A stretch of DNA of 64,000 bases from Elusimicrobiota bacterium (GTDB taxonomy: Bacteria > Elusimicrobiota > Elusimicrobia > UBA1565 > UBA9628). The DNA is taken from contig JACRDN010000023.1 in NCBI GenBank assembly GCA_016218575.1, positions 1 to 64,000 on the forward strand. Reading direction: 5' to 3'. Positions within the stretch are counted from its first letter, which is position 1. Each line of letters starts with the position of its first letter. Position numbers and translations under genes: made by a program. Shown piece after piece: positions 29,350 to 55,156 of the stretch. The notes beneath the pieces were generated by a model. The model did not search any database, was not told the DNA's origin, and saw nothing but the letters and a program-made list of their open reading frames with translations.

Positions 29350-30858
29350 ATGGCATGGGTTCTGTTGGTCTCGGTTTTCCTCATCGGGCTCAACGCCCTT
29401 TTCGTCCTCATGGAGTTCGCCTTGGTCAAGGTGCGCTCCTCACACATCGAGATGCTGATCCGCCGGGGCAGCGCCAGGGCCGTGGGGGTCAAGGAGCTCC
29501 AAGGGCGTTTGGACGATTACCTGGCCGCCATCCAAATGGGCATCACCGTGATCGCTTTGGCCCTAGGGTGGATCGGGGAGCCCGCCCTCGCCCGGATGAT
29601 GGGCTCTCTTCTTCAATCCCTGCCGAGCCCCATGCCCATCCCGCTGCTAGAGAGCCTGGCCTTCGGGCTGGGTCTGCTCCTGCTCTCCTGGGCCCATATC
29701 GTGTTCGGGGAGCTTATCCCGCGCTCGATCGGCCTTCAAAAGGCCGAGTCCATCGCCTTGGGAGGGGTCTATGCCTTGAGGCGCTTCTCGAGCTTCCTGC
29801 GCCTGCCCGTGTCCTTCATGTCCTACTGCTCCCGGCTCTTTCTAAAGATTTTCGGTTTCAAGACCGCCGCGGAATCCGAGCCCGTCGTCTCTGAGGAGGA
29901 AATGCGCATCCTCCTGGGGGAGACCCAGGAGCGGGGGACCTTGCCCTTGGAGAGGCTGCTTCTTCTCGAGAATCTGTTCGATTTCGGCCGCACCAAGGTC
30001 TCCGAGATCATGGTGCCCAAGGACAAGATGGCCTTTCTGTCCTTGGCCAAGCCATGGGCGGAGAACTGGGACCTGGTCCGGTCCCGGAGACTCTCCCGCT
30101 ATCCCCTGTGCGAGAGAGACATAGAATCCGTCATCGGCATGGTGCACGTCAAGGACTTGATGTTACGGCCGCCGGAGAGCTCCCAGGAACTGAGGAAGAT
30201 CAGGCGAGACCTCGCCGAGGTCCGCGAGGGCGACTCCTTGGAAAAGCTTCTCAAGTATTTCCCGGACAAGGGCATCCACCTGGCCGCGGTGCGCGACGCC
30301 CAGGGCCAGCTCACGGGCTTCATCACGCTCGAGGACATCCTGGAGGAGCTGGTGGGAGAGGTGCACGACGAATTTGATCTTCCCCAGGCCTGGTCCTTGA
30401 TGGACGTCCTGGTGCCCCAGAGCGTCTCGGTCGAGCTCCAGGCGGCCGACAGCGCCGAGGCGATTTCCCGTCTTTTGGAGAGGCTCGCCGCGGCCTGCCC
30501 CACCTTGAAGAGGGATGAAATTTTCAAGGCCGTCTGGGAGCGCGAGGCCAAGTTCTCAAGTGCCGTGGGCCACGGTGTGGCCGTCCCCCACGCGCGCCTG
30601 GCGGGCTTCGACAAGACCTTGGTGGCCTTGGGGCGTTTTGTGAAGCCCGTCCCCTTTCCCGCCCCCGACGCCGTGCCCGTGCGCCTGATCTTTCTCATCC
30701 TCACCCCGGCCGCGACCCCGGTGGCCCAGCTCCGGGTTCTCGGCCGCATCGCCTCCCTCATGACCAATGAGACCCTGCGTCGCAAGCTCCTCCGCGCCAA
30801 GACCGCCGAATCCATGCTCGAGACCTTGCGCACCGCCGACACCTTGCTCGCGATTTAG
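29350..30858 (+). CDS. CNNM/CBS membrane protein fused to a PTS EIIA domain
   Basis: A 502-residue product. Residues 1-175 form a DUF21/CNNM transporter domain with about four membrane helices (VLLVSVFLIGLNALFVLMEF). A CBS pair at about 185-345 follows (VSEIMVPKDKM ... TGFITLEDILEELVGEVHDE). Instead of the usual CorC/HlyC tail, residues about 355-500 are a PTS EIIA type-2/Ntr domain. This keeps the phosphorylatable His in GHGVAVPHARL. CNNM proteins export or regulate Mg2+ and similar ions, so phosphorylation by HPr or EINtr may tune the transporter. It has its own leaderless-type promoter. Confidence 0.9.
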   Translation: MAWVLLVSVFLIGLNALFVLMEFALVKVRSSHIEMLIRRGSARAVGVKELQGRLDDYLAAIQMGITVIALALGWIGEPALARMMGSLLQSLPSPMPIPLLESLAFGLGLLLLSWAHIVFGELIPRSIGLQKAESIALGGVYALRRFSSFLRLPVSFMSYCSRLFLKIFGFKTAAESEPVVSEEEMRILLGETQERGTLPLERLLLLENLFDFGRTKVSEIMVPKDKMAFLSLAKPWAENWDLVRSRRLSRYPLCERDIESVIGMVHVKDLMLRPPESSQELRKIRRDLAEVREGDSLEKLLKYFPDKGIHLAAVRDAQGQLTGFITLEDILEELVGEVHDEFDLPQAWSLMDVLVPQSVSVELQAADSAEAISRLLERLAAACPTLKRDEIFKAVWEREAKFSSAVGHGVAVPHARLAGFDKTLVALGRFVKPVPFPAPDAVPVRLIFLILTPAATPVAQLRVLGRIASLMTNETLRRKLLRAKTAESMLETLRTADTLLAI

Positions 30859-30873
30859 GCGCCAGCCGTTAAC

Positions 30874-31431
30874 TTACTTAACTTGCTGCGGAATTAGTTC
30901 GGGATGCACGGCGCAATAGAACTTGCTTCCCTTAGGCGCATCGTGATCTTCAAATGATTCATCGTCTGACAGCTTGTATTTTAGGAGACGCACGGTTCCT
31001 ATATGGGAATAACTCTTGTCAAGGAAGTCGGCGTGGGCTCTTGGAACCGCGGTTTCGGCGAAGCTGACTTGGAGCATGAATTCCGCTCGCTCGGTTTTCG
31101 ATCGAATGAGGAAATAATCCCTGCCATGTTCAATAATGGCCTCGGAACCGTCCAGAATAGACGGACCTGAACCAAAGCATCCGGTCTGCCACAAGAAGGC
31201 GGACAATCGTTTGTCCTGGGATTCATGGAGTTTGAAGAAGAATCCGGTCGTGGTCCAATCGTTCTTTAGGTAACAAGAGACGAGCGTTTTCGGTTTTTGC
31301 GGAGAGAATTTTGGGATATCCTCGCTGACGGCTTGCAATTGCTGCTCCCATATGGGTTTGTCGAGCGCCCAGCAGGGCGAGACGAGCAGGAAGAGCTCGG
31401 CCAAAAGCAATCCGACATTTCTTGATTTCAC
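30874..31431 (-). CDS. Hypothetical exported protein
   Basis: A 185-residue product with a signal peptide (VGLLLAELFLLVSPCWA). The mature part has four cysteines (SCYLKND, TGCFGSG, FYCAVHP and the signal-end Cys) and a beta-rich pattern. No family was recognised. The codons are visibly less G+C-rich than the neighbours, which hints at later acquisition. It converges on the CNNM-EIIA gene with a 15-nt gap that contains the small repeat GTTAACTTACTTAACTTG. Confidence 0.65.
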   Translation of the reverse strand: MKSRNVGLLLAELFLLVSPCWALDKPIWEQQLQAVSEDIPKFSPQKPKTLVSCYLKNDWTTTGFFFKLHESQDKRLSAFLWQTGCFGSGPSILDGSEAIIEHGRDYFLIRSKTERAEFMLQVSFAETAVPRAHADFLDKSYSHIGTVRLLKYKLSDDESFEDHDAPKGSKFYCAVHPELIPQQVK

Positions 31432-50593: not shown

Positions 50594-52377
50594 TGCCCGA
50601 GGCCAGCCCCTCGCCGTTCGAAAGGCAGTCCCTCGAGGCCTTGAAAGGCTTGGGCAAGGCCTTGGGGCAGATGTCGCTCTATAAGGTGGGCCATCCCGCG
50701 GTCGCCGAGACCCTGAAGGCGGTTTTGGCGGAGCTATCGGCGGTCTTGGAACAAACTTCCGAAGGGGAGCTCGCCTATTCCCTGGACCAAGACAAGCTCA
50801 TCGCCAATGGCCGCATCGCGGGGCTTCTGTCGCGCCTGCCCTCGGCTATTCCGGCTTTTTTCACGCGCTTTAAGATAGGCAGTCTCACTTTGAAGCGGGG
50901 CTTGGAGTATCAGGAGTTGGTGGCGTTATGCGAGCTCTCGGCGGCGCGGCAGGACTTGGGCCAGCCGGGCCAAGCCTTCCTCGACGCTAAGGGAGCCTCC
51001 CATATCCTTCTCAACGAGGCGGTCTACACCAAGCTCAAGGCCGTGGACCTCAACGAGGCCCTGCAGAACAAGTCAGCGGAGAGCACCATCCAGGCCCTCA
51101 TCCAGAAGGCCGTGCCCAACGCGGCCCAGCACGGGGAGCTTTACGAGAAGGTGATGCATCTGTTGCAGGACGACGTGGAGCGCCGCGTGGAGGAGGTCGT
51201 CTCGCCCATCCGCAAGGAGAAGAGCCGCCTCGAAAACGAGCAGGCCCGTACCATGAGCGTGCTCCAGAACGTGGCGGAGGGCGTGGTCATGGTGGACGAT
51301 CAGGGCCGGGTTCTCATGATGAACCCCGCCGCGGAGCAGATTTATGGGGCCTCCTTGGCCCAGCTGGCGGGCAAGCCCCTGTCGGAGGCCGTGGGGGAGA
51401 ACCATGTCACGGCCTTGGCCGCCGAGATCGCCACGCCCACGGACCGCCCCATCAAACCAGAGGTCAAGGTGCTGGCCGACGAGGAGACCCGCAGAGTGGT
51501 CAAGGCCGCCGGGGCCATGGTCCAGAACGAAGCCGGCAAGGTCGTGGGCATGGTCTCGGCTCTCACCGACTCGGTCAAGCATAAGGAGTTCCAGAGCCTC
51601 CAGCGCGACTTCGTGGCCCACGTGACCCACGAGCTGCGGGCTCCCCTGTCCTCCATACGCGCGGCGTTGGAGATACTGCAGGACGAGGTCTCGGCCAAGA
51701 TCGAGCAAAAGGATAACCAGGTTTTGGGCACGGCCATCCGCAACAGTGAGAGGCTCTCGGGCCTCATCGACAGCATTTTGGATTTCTCCAAGATCGAATC
51801 GGGGCAGATGACGGTCTACCCCAAGAGGGCCTCCGCAGAGAGCCTGGCGCGCGAGGCCGTGGAAAGCCTGACCCCCTGGGCCAAGAAGCAGGGGCTGGCC
51901 CTGACCTTGTCGCTGGGGCAGGCCTTGCCTCTGGTCGCGGCCGATGCCAAGCGCACCGTCCAGGTCCTCGTTAATCTCATCTCGAACGCCATCAAGTTTA
52001 CCCCAGCCGGGGGCCGAATCACGGTGAGCGCCAACTGGCCCAAGGCGCTGGGCAAGGCGTCTCTGGGCGAGAAGCAGCTTCTTTTTTCGGTGGTGGACAC
52101 GGGCTGCGGGATTGCCAAGGACGATCAGGACCGGATATTCGAGAAATTCGTCCAGATCGCATCGGGCGAGCTGCACGTGGGAGGGACGGGCTTGGGGCTG
52201 GCCATCGCCAAGGCCCTGGTCCACATGCAGGAGGGCAAGATGTGGGTGGAAAGCGAGTCCGGCAAGGGCTCGACATTTTATTTCACTTTGCCCGTGCACC
52301 ACGAGCCGGCCGAGCCGGCTTTGCGCAAGCCTGCGCCGCGCTCGCTCTGGCAGAGGATACTCGGCCTTTTTCAATGA
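50593..52377 (+). CDS. Soluble sensor histidine kinase with a long N-terminal domain
   Basis: A 594-residue product without transmembrane segments. Residues 1-210 form an unrecognised helical domain. A PAS domain follows at about 225-335 ([20 protein letters not shown]). HisKA carries His346 ([12 protein letters not shown]), and the ATPase domain at about 455-570 has [15 protein letters not shown] and [14 protein letters not shown]. The start codon overlaps the sugar dehydrogenase stop (TGATG), an odd pairing. No response regulator is adjacent. Its last 95 nt overlap convergent comF. Confidence 0.92.
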
Positions 52378-53029
52378 GCTGCCGGGCGAAGACGTAGCCC
52401 AGCGCCTGCGTCGCGCCCGCGTCGAGCAGGGCCTCCGCCGCGGCCTCCAGAGAGGCTCCGCTGGTGCAGACGTCGTCTATGATCCAGAATCTTCCTCCCT
52501 CGAGCCGTTGCCGCGCTTGCATGGAATGCTGGAGGTTCTTGAGGCGCTCCTGGCGATTGAGCTCGAGCTGGGGCTTGGTTTTGCGCGTGCGGACCAAGAG
52601 CTCCCGCACGGGAATGCTGCAGGCCCGGGAGAGGGACTCGGCCAGGAGCAGGGACTGGTTGTACCCGCGCTCTCGCAGACGGGACGGGTGCAGGGGTACT
52701 GGCACCAGGGCCCGGGGCCGCTCAAGCTCGGGGAATCGGGCCAGCTCCGCCGCCATCCACAGACCCGCGGCCTTGGCCGCGCTTTTCTGGCCCCTGTATT
52801 TGAAGGCGTGAACTACTGATACCGCCGAGCCGCGGTAGAGATAGGCCGCGCGCAGGAGGGGGCAGCGCTTAAGGCCTCCCGAGGGGGAAAATTCCCAAGG
52901 CACGAGCAGCAGCAGGCAGGCCCGGCAAAGCGGTCCATCCGCGCCCTTGGGCAAATCCTCCCGGCAATGCGCGCAAGTCCTCGGCCAAATCCAATGCCAT
53001 AGAGTTTCCCGCGCCCATTCCCAGCCCAT
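52283..53029 (-). CDS. comF: ComF-family phosphoribosyltransferase-like protein
   Basis: A 248-residue product. An N-terminal double zinc ribbon has Cys19/22 (CAHC) and Cys35/38 (CRAC). The phosphoribosyltransferase-like domain carries the PRPP loop IIDDVCTSGAS. ComF acts in DNA uptake by competent cells; a role in DNA repair or nucleotide scavenging is also suggested. The last 30 residues ([20 protein letters not shown]) are low complexity and lie in the overlap with the kinase gene, so they may be non-functional. TATAGA ends 5 nt before the ATG. Confidence 0.88.
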   Translation of the reverse strand: MGWEWARETLWHWIWPRTCAHCREDLPKGADGPLCRACLLLLVPWEFSPSGGLKRCPLLRAAYLYRGSAVSVVHAFKYRGQKSAAKAAGLWMAAELARFPELERPRALVPVPLHPSRLRERGYNQSLLLAESLSRACSIPVRELLVRTRKTKPQLELNRQERLKNLQHSMQARQRLEGGRFWIIDDVCTSGASLEAAAEALLDAGATQALGYVFARQLIEKGRVSSARASAAQACAKPARPARGARAK

Positions 53030-53034
53030 GCCTA

Positions 53035-53040
53035 TCTATA
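53035..53040 (-). promoter_or_regulatory. -10-like TATAGA box for comF
   Basis: On the minus strand TATAGA ends 5 nt before the ATG at 53029 with no Shine-Dalgarno. Confidence 0.35.
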
Positions 53041-53081
53041 CGACGCTCCCCCCAAAAAGGTTCCACCTGCCAACTGGCAGC

Positions 53082-53179
53082 TGGTGTCAGACTATTAACT
53101 TATGCAACTTGTGCAACTTATTTGAATTTCCTTGACGAAGAAAGTTTAATAAGTTGCATAAGTTAATAGTCTGACACCA
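53082..53179. repeat. 98-bp inverted-repeat element between comF and the PBP gene
   Basis: Left arm 53082-53122 starts TGGTGTCAGACTATTAACTT. Right arm 53148-53179 is its exact reverse complement over 32 bp, apart from a 9-nt duplication (GTGCAACTT) inside the left arm. A 25-nt centre separates them. The sequence is far more A/T-rich than its surroundings. It resembles a non-autonomous miniature or REP-like mobile element, but I see no target duplication or transposase. Confidence 0.75.
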
Positions 53180-53182
53180 TTC

Positions 53183-55156
53183 GTGAAAGCGTTATTCTTG
53201 GGTTTGCTGGCGGCGGCAATTGCCGCGGCTGCGTTCTTGGGCCGCGGGTTCTGGACTTACAAGAACCTCGAGAGATCCGTGGTCCAGCGCATGGATCAAT
53301 ATTACCTTGCCATCACATCGCCCGGCCGCGAGGCGTATCTCCTGGGGAGCGACGAGGTTTTCGAGGTGCCGTACATGGCATCCAAGCTTTCGGTGGAGGC
53401 CCTGCCCACGCAGATATTAGACGCCCAGGATAGGCTCCTAGGAGAGTTCAGCCCGCGAAAGGGCCTGTACGTCTCCGACCCGGAGGATATCCCCGATTCC
53501 CTCAAGAAGGCTTTGGTCGCGACCGAAGACGGGAATTTCTACCAGCACCACGGCGTGAACTGGCGCGCGCTCCTGCGCGCCGCGGCGGTCAACCTCAAAA
53601 ACCTACGGGTCAAGCAAGGAGGAAGCACCTTGACCCAACAGCTCGCCAAGATGATGTTCACCACCCGCCAGAGGACTTTCGGCCGCAAGCTCTTCGAGCT
53701 CTTTTGCGCGAGGAAGCTGGAGGGCAAGTTCACCAAGGACCAGATACTCCTCATGTATCTCAACTTCGCCTACTTCGGCGGCGGTTGCTACGGGATCGAA
53801 TCCGCGGCCCGGGCCTATTTCGGCAAGTCCGCCAAAGAGCTCGAACTCGAGGAATCCGCGATGTTGGCCGGGCTCGTGGCCAGTCCTAGCCGCTACTCCC
53901 CATTCGAGAATCTGGAACTGGCCAAGGCCAGGCAAAGGACCGTGCTGACGCGCATGGCCCGGCTCGGCTTCATCTCTTCATCGGCGGCGAGAAACCAATC
54001 CCCGCAATTTTGGCGGCGGTTCGAGGCGGGGTCCGCCGTTCCGGAGATTTCTTTCTGGCGCATGGAAGTCAACGAGGCCCCTTATGCGGTGGAGTTCCTG
54101 CGCCGCCAGCTCCTCACCCGCTTCAGCCAGGAGAGGCTGATCAAGGGGGGATTGCGCGTTCGCACGACTTTCGACTTGGACATCCAACGCGAGGCCCAGC
54201 GCGCCTTGAAGGAGGGGCTGGCCCGCGAGAACCGGGGCTTGAGCCGGGAAACCCCTCCCGTGGAGGGGGCCTTGGCCGCCGTGAATCCTGAAGACGGGGC
54301 CGTTCTGGCCCTGGTCGGAGGCAGCGCTTTCAATTTCCAGAATCAGCTTATCCGCGCCGCGGACAGCCGCAGGCCCATGGGTTCGACAGTGAAGCCCTTC
54401 ATTTTCGCGGTGGCTCTCGCCTCGGGCCGGTTCAGGCTTGAGGATGAGATAACGGACGCGCCGAGGCGCTACCCCATGGGCGGCGGCCGCGTTTGGTCGC
54501 CGCGCAATTACGGGAACAAGTATTACGGCGAGGTGACTTTGCGCTTGGCCCTGCAGAAGTCCTTGAATTCCGTGGCTGTCCAGCTTCTACGCGACGCGGA
54601 CAAGGACGCGGTGGCGCGTATCCTCTCCCAGGCTTCAGGAGCGCCCGAGGCCCGGTTTCCCCGAAATCTGTCGCTGGCCTTGGGCGCTGCGGATCTCTCG
54701 GCCCTCGAGACGGCCCGGGCTTACGCCGTTTTCGTCAACGGCGGCCGCGCGGTGGAGCCTTACTTTATCCGCTCCATCCAGGATCGCGAGGGGCGGACTC
54801 TGGAGGAGCGCAAGCCCGCCGGGGAGCTACCGCAGGTGCTCGATCCCGGGGTCAGCCGGGCTCTCCTCGAGGCTCTCCGGGGAGTGCTCGGGCCCGAGGG
54901 AACGGCTTACGCCGCGGCCCAAAGGGCGGGATTCAGCCTGCCCGCAGCCGGCAAGACCGGGACTACGGATGACTACCGGGACGCGTGGTTTGCCGGGGTC
55001 ACGGCGGACGTTTCGGCGGCGGTCTGGATCGGGCATGACGACGCCCGGGTCGCTCTCGGGGCTGGCAAATCCGGCGGGATCGTGGCGGCTCCGATCTGGA
55101 TGGATTTCGTCAAGGGAATCTACCGCGGCAGGCCTACTCGGCCTCTTCCCAATTAG
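53183..55156 (+). CDS. Class A penicillin-binding protein (transglycosylase/transpeptidase)
   Basis: A 657-residue bifunctional enzyme with an N-terminal membrane anchor (LFLGLLAAAIAAAAFL). The GT51 glycosyltransferase is at about 80-250 (ATEDGNFYQHHGVNW, QGGSTLTQQLAKMMF). The transpeptidase has Ser401 and Lys404 (GSTVKPF), an SxN (KSLNSVAV) and KTG (AGKTGTTDDY) near 590. It builds peptidoglycan in the periplasm. The GTG start lies 3 nt after the inverted-repeat element, so the promoter and leader must be inside that element. TTGACG at 53132-53137 is a possible -35. Confidence 0.95.
   Translation: MKALFLGLLAAAIAAAAFLGRGFWTYKNLERSVVQRMDQYYLAITSPGREAYLLGSDEVFEVPYMASKLSVEALPTQILDAQDRLLGEFSPRKGLYVSDPEDIPDSLKKALVATEDGNFYQHHGVNWRALLRAAAVNLKNLRVKQGGSTLTQQLAKMMFTTRQRTFGRKLFELFCARKLEGKFTKDQILLMYLNFAYFGGGCYGIESAARAYFGKSAKELELEESAMLAGLVASPSRYSPFENLELAKARQRTVLTRMARLGFISSSAARNQSPQFWRRFEAGSAVPEISFWRMEVNEAPYAVEFLRRQLLTRFSQERLIKGGLRVRTTFDLDIQREAQRALKEGLARENRGLSRETPPVEGALAAVNPEDGAVLALVGGSAFNFQNQLIRAADSRRPMGSTVKPFIFAVALASGRFRLEDEITDAPRRYPMGGGRVWSPRNYGNKYYGEVTLRLALQKSLNSVAVQLLRDADKDAVARILSQASGAPEARFPRNLSLALGAADLSALETARAYAVFVNGGRAVEPYFIRSIQDREGRTLEERKPAGELPQVLDPGVSRALLEALRGVLGPEGTAYAAAQRAGFSLPAAGKTGTTDDYRDAWFAGVTADVSAAVWIGHDDARVALGAGKSGGIVAAPIWMDFVKGIYRGRPTRPLPN

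Follow-up and report, generated by a model that had tools for sequence, protein, structure and literature searches.

A putative miniature transposon with TIRYT-type ends provides the leader of a class A PBP gene in an Elusimicrobiota bacterium

The hairpin element directly upstream of a class A PBP gene in the window, the whole 64,000-nucleotide stretch analysed here, most likely is a miniature transposon made of the joined ends of a TIRYT. We propose, with a probability of roughly 0.85, that it was mobilised in trans, replaced the promoter box and first codons of the PBP gene, and now gives this gene its leader and probably its promoter. The element is organised as follows:

53082 to 53179, no strand: family-A element, two TIRYT-type terminal inverted repeats (TIRs) fused head-to-head (MITE or TIR dimer)
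53082 to 53110, plus strand: left arm, perfect part, TGGTGTCAGACTATTAACTTATGCAACTT, with imperfect pairing on to 53119
53111 to 53150, plus strand: element centre, longer than the centres of other copies, with the best promoter-like match (a consensus match only) inside
53151 to 53179, minus strand: right arm, perfect part, with imperfect pairing from 53142

A 98-bp AT-rich inverted-repeat element had been described at these positions in an earlier note on this DNA, and it is indeed present, with a GC content of 33% versus 62% in the window. Two details of that description needed correction. The perfect arms measure 29 bp instead of 32 bp, and reach 38 nt at 92% identity when mismatches are allowed, while the internal duplication, TGCAACTT, is exact over 8 nt rather than 9. 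The longest perfect arm in 100 dinucleotide shuffles of the whole window was 15 bp. The layout is a tip, GGTGTCAGAC, followed by AACTT repeats, with two such tips placed head-to-head. RNA folding of positions 53065 to 53230 yielded -78 kcal/mol (z = -9.8). Such a very stable hairpin directly before a start codon would suit a regulator of the PBP gene that evolved in place, either an ordinary stem-loop or an attenuator. Conversely to this, no Rfam family matched the element above its gathering score. The only matches were of miRNA type, below the gathering scores, and we rejected these as long-hairpin artefacts.

The distribution of the element also speaks against a stem-loop that evolved in place. 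The host genome assembly is 2.82 Mb long and 97% complete. A search of all of it for the 17-nt tip with up to three mismatches returned 14 matches, four of them exact, versus one in the reversed-pattern control. Family A includes at least five two-ended copies in this genome (98, 89, 86 and 58 bp, and one collapsed to 30 bp) and at least five one-ended copies. Nearly all are located at the borders of different, unrelated genes, and in three genes the tip adds, in frame, the C-terminus -LV(S/A)D(Y/F)*. The genome-wide search that the earlier note had called for thus shows a dispersed, multi-copy element, which is absent from orthologous PBP genes (see below), rather than a single copy conserved there. 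Dispersed copies at unrelated genes refute the stem-loop as a complete account, and we consider it highly improbable.

Outside the host genome, the 340 other Elusimicrobiota genomes contained only two isolated tip matches, with two mismatches each, and no family. An exact pattern scan of the genome contig collection for the tip plus AACTT found no match, and the literal tip string occurred in the literature in unrelated papers only. By eye, neither a target-site duplication nor a target consensus was seen in the listed flanks of copies and units. GG is often preceded by a T or C in these flanks; this base is complementary to the A or G that follows CACC and is therefore part of the TIR.

The element lies in the spacer between the PBP gene and its divergent neighbour, and the surrounding features are as follows:

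52283 to 53029, minus strand: comF-like gene, divergent neighbour
53038 to 53064, minus strand: ECF-sigma-like promoter motif of comF, GGAACCTTTTTGGGGGGAGCGTCGTAT, one of six in the genome
53065 to 53081: 17 bp between the comF motif and the element, with a small palindrome, CTGCCAACTGGCAG
53183 to 55156, plus strand: class A PBP of the PBP1A family that starts with GTG and whose N-terminus is 3-9 residues shorter than those of 10 relatives

The PBP ORF scores above the cut-off for TIGR02074 and contains Transgly and Transpeptidase domains, which confirms the class A assignment; its closest named relatives are from Elusimicrobia MAGs. As had been claimed, only 3 nt separate the element from the GTG at 53183. 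The claim that the gene has no other upstream space also holds, since comF starts at 53029 on the opposite strand and its motif fills 53038 to 53064, leaving 17 bp.

The earlier note had also suggested a look for empty sites in relatives. Read by eye, none of the relatives' stretches upstream of the PBP gene carries the tip, and the hairpin is absent from these orthologous loci. Where comF and the PBP gene are divergent in relatives, the spacer has GGAAC...CGTAT-like boxes on the comF side. Five comF-syntenic relatives have a TATCAT or TATGAT box a short distance upstream of the PBP start, whereas the window lacks it. The distance from the PBP start to the MD motif is 36 residues here versus 39-45 in ten relatives, a comparison with genera that are about 60% identical in PBP sequence. 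Considering the missing box and the shorter N-terminus, the element seems to have replaced the promoter-like box together with the first three to four codons. The relatives' box, TTTGGTATCAT, is similar to the tip of the element, TGGTGTCA(T/G), which is either coincidence or target similarity. In one genus, three genomes (G007, G014 and G019) have a RAYT gene (L102, L101 and L100, respectively) directly downstream of the PBP orthologue, meaning that both sides of the gene were struck by one element class.

It follows from this anatomy that the element supplies the 5' leader of the PBP gene, as had been claimed, and we regard this as near-certain. Whether it also supplies the promoter is a weaker case. 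TTGAAT (53122-53127) and TTTAAT (53145-53150), separated by 17 nt, form a sigma-70-like match that clearly outscores all others in the spacer, although 4.8% of element shuffles equalled its score under a crude hand-made matrix. The TTGACG at 53132, previously put forward as a -35 box, exists, but its best partner scores far lower than TTGAAT-N17-TTTAAT, and we rejected it. The two other full copies would have TTCAAA or TTCAAT as their -10 and have centres that are shorter by 9-12 nt, so the promoter match is peculiar to the PBP copy. Promoter activity as a general property of family A was rejected: in two copies promoter-like boxes are found beyond the element, upstream of A3 and downstream of A4.

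Alternatively, the element may be a true MITE with no promoter role, which forms only the untranslated leader of a transcript started upstream of 53082. The marginal score of the in-element promoter and the TTGGCC-N18-TATAAT upstream of copy A3 (contig C9) are in line with this. Conversely, the best plus-strand matches in 53030-53182 include none that is located 5' of the element. In a transcript from upstream, the whole hairpin would also reach to within 3 nt of the GTG, so that no ribosome-binding site would stay free. We therefore consider a leader-only role less likely than not and promoter function possible to probable. An element-borne PBP promoter at TTGAAT-N17-TTTAAT is plausible but weak on this consensus match, and that the element regulates cell-wall synthesis, as the earlier note had it, is speculation. 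The domestication that this note proposed would likewise be conjectural.

To trace the origin of the element, Y1_Tnp genes of the host genome and relatives were fetched and their borders read. Several of these genes sit within units of approximately 0.9-1.4 kb with long TIRs, which include GGGTGCCAGTCATTTACATTCTTAACTTACTTAACTTCC (host unit L044), TGGTGTCAGACATTGCGTAACTTGC (genome G009), GGTGTCATACTTTAACTTTTTAACTT (genome G020) and others. The RAYT units of the host (G000), G009, G015, G020 and G014 have GGTGYCA-type TIR boundaries, mostly with AACTT repeats. Genomes with such units contain short elements in which both unit ends are fused. In the host genome these form family B, an 83-bp fusion of the L044 ends with a TIR identical to that of L044. 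One family-B copy has a tip that provides the ATG of a neuA-like gene. Genome G009 contains several 65-bp fusions of its own unit ends and a larger group of shorter related elements (59 tip matches, versus none in the control). Family B and its probable relic in the window are located as follows:

C17:158134-158218, C19:208782-208866 and C23:154110-154184: family-B copies, two ends of RAYT unit L044 fused
30858 to 30886, plus strand: probable family-B relic, one end, GCGCCAGCCGTTAACTTACTTAACTTG, that directly follows a stop codon, with 16-nt identity to the TIR of the resident RAYT unit

The similar string that had been noticed within this relic is real at 30869-30884 (expected 0 by chance), but it matches family B, and we rejected it as a family-A copy.

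An IS200/Y1-type transposase had been predicted, and the kind was correct: the host genome has two RAYT genes, but neither has exactly the family-A ends. The L044 tips, GGTGCCAGTC, are related to those of family A but different. A unit with exactly these ends was found neither in the host assembly nor in the 340 other Elusimicrobiota genomes, so the cognate transposase is lost, unassembled or unsampled. While family B and the G009 elements match the ends of a Y1 unit exactly, family A agrees only in architecture and tip. Judged by its sequence, the window element is most probably a non-autonomous TIR-repeat MITE of the TIRYT (Y1, HUH) kind, since its layout matches the TIRs of RAYT/TIRYT units and family B consists of joined ends of a resident unit.

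The resident transposases score above the Y1_Tnp cut-off and have weak C-terminal HTH_23 or Bac_DnaA_C matches. L044 contains NHLH and RYIHFNP, with 49 bits for Y1_Tnp and an HTH_23 match (E = 0.006) under its cut-off. In NCBIfam REP_Tyr_transpos the two resident transposases score 77.4 and 72.5, just below the cut-off of 80. These scores, together with paired inverted units at gene borders, are reminiscent of a classical GTAG-tagged REP or REPIN of a RAYT. However, the halves of the element have neither a GTAG or GTGG head nor a separate hairpin of their own, and the whole element is a single hairpin of two complementary TIRs, as in TIRYTs. A classical REP or REPIN is thus highly improbable. 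The mobile, REP-like origin that had been suggested is well supported by the dispersed copies, the Y1-unit-end architecture, the absence from orthologous PBP genes and a family without copies in other genomes. The element lies outside the classical REP/REPIN definition.

In the history that we favour, the two ends of a TIRYT, the TIR-flanked unit of a RAYT (a Y1 HUH tyrosine transposase), would have been joined back to back. The product presumably moved as single-stranded DNA, mobilised in trans by a transposase for which no matching gene was found in the assembly. It would have landed in the divergent comF-PBP spacer, where the ancestral PBP promoter box and first codons were replaced, either through a deletion that accompanied the insertion or through erosion afterwards. 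The PBP gene would then have come to start at a GTG 3 nt outside the element, making the element its 5' leader, probably with a promoter in its centre.

TIRYTs have been described as TIRtrons, RAYT-like genes with long flanking TIRs of which copies, many of them dimers, occur elsewhere in the genome (Di Nocera et al. 2013, PMC3733652). Quentin et al. 2018 (PMC6006769) assigned most of them to TnpA_REP subclass 2.1, which has C-termini of the Bac_DnaA_C or HTH_23 type. Among the literature searched, the term TIRYT occurs only in these two papers, and neither mentions Elusimicrobiota. The units described here likewise combine a RAYT-like HUH/Y1 transposase and a C-terminal HTH with long flanking TIRs instead of REPs, and the moderately abundant TIR copies, many of them dimers, correspond to the TIR-repeat families. 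Unlike in the described cases, the tips here read GGTG(T/C)CAG rather than GGGGWSAS, no cognate transposase of family A was found and one copy occupies a PBP leader. The family-A TIR lacks GGGGWSAS, with GGTGTCAG one mismatch from GGGGTCAG; this motif is found in some but not all described TIRYTs and is not strictly defining (PMC3733652).

REPINs of REP-RAYT systems are also non-autonomous inverted pairs that are tied to a RAYT and located at gene borders, with a proposed single-strand mechanism, but the halves of this element lack a GTAG-tagged palindrome and its copies number no more than tens. MITEs of DDE insertion sequences (Correia, RUP; PMC2817692) are similarly short and AT-rich, with two TIRs and no gene. 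In contrast to these, no target-site duplication was seen here in the listed flanks, and the ends correspond to those of Y1-transposase units rather than to those of a DDE insertion sequence. Classical IS200/IS605 elements have subterminal hairpins and no TIR, unlike the long TIRs here. The element extends the range of TIR-repeat MITEs to the Elusimicrobiota and is a concrete case in which a cell-wall gene seems to have had its promoter and start overwritten by one of them.

Six copies of the comF motif, GGAAC(N)TTTNNGGGG...CGTAT, are present in the host genome, versus none in the control. They precede comF, RAYT L044, three further genes and an ECF sigma gene at 83.8 kb on C22:

Window 53038-53064 (minus strand), C23:71709, C22:83811, C16:113993, C19:525504 and C20:73271: GGAAC-N17-CGTAT sites

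In relatives, where 37 genomes contained no reversed-pattern matches, the motif precedes comEC (two genomes), radC, comF, HNH genes, an ECF sigma gene and a RAYT, and is also found 121 nt upstream of a recA. With a looser pattern at a nearly fixed distance, it was present on 17 of 20 RAYTs with an intact NHxH and on none of nine with a broken one (Fisher p = 2e-5), counts that are not independent because the genomes are related.

We infer that the ECF sigma factor binds the motif, and the motif-bearing genes are a candidate competence regulon that includes a transposase. Our suggestion that Elusimicrobiota TIRYT transposases belong to an autoregulated ECF-sigma regulon with transformation genes (comEC, comF, radC, recA) is tentative, somewhat short of an even chance. 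If true, the entry of single-stranded DNA into the cell would turn on a single-strand transposase, whose miniature by-products would rewire gene starts, such as the PBP leader. Little is known about the timing and causes of RAYT-type transposase expression, a question that the motif pattern makes directly testable.

The broken-HUH RAYT-like proteins (L045, L079, L086, L088, L093, L094, L103, L104 and L106) have, for example, SEVH or SYVH, and their Tyr region is mostly intact. That none of them has the ECF-like promoter suggests that they may be immobile, adopted relatives.
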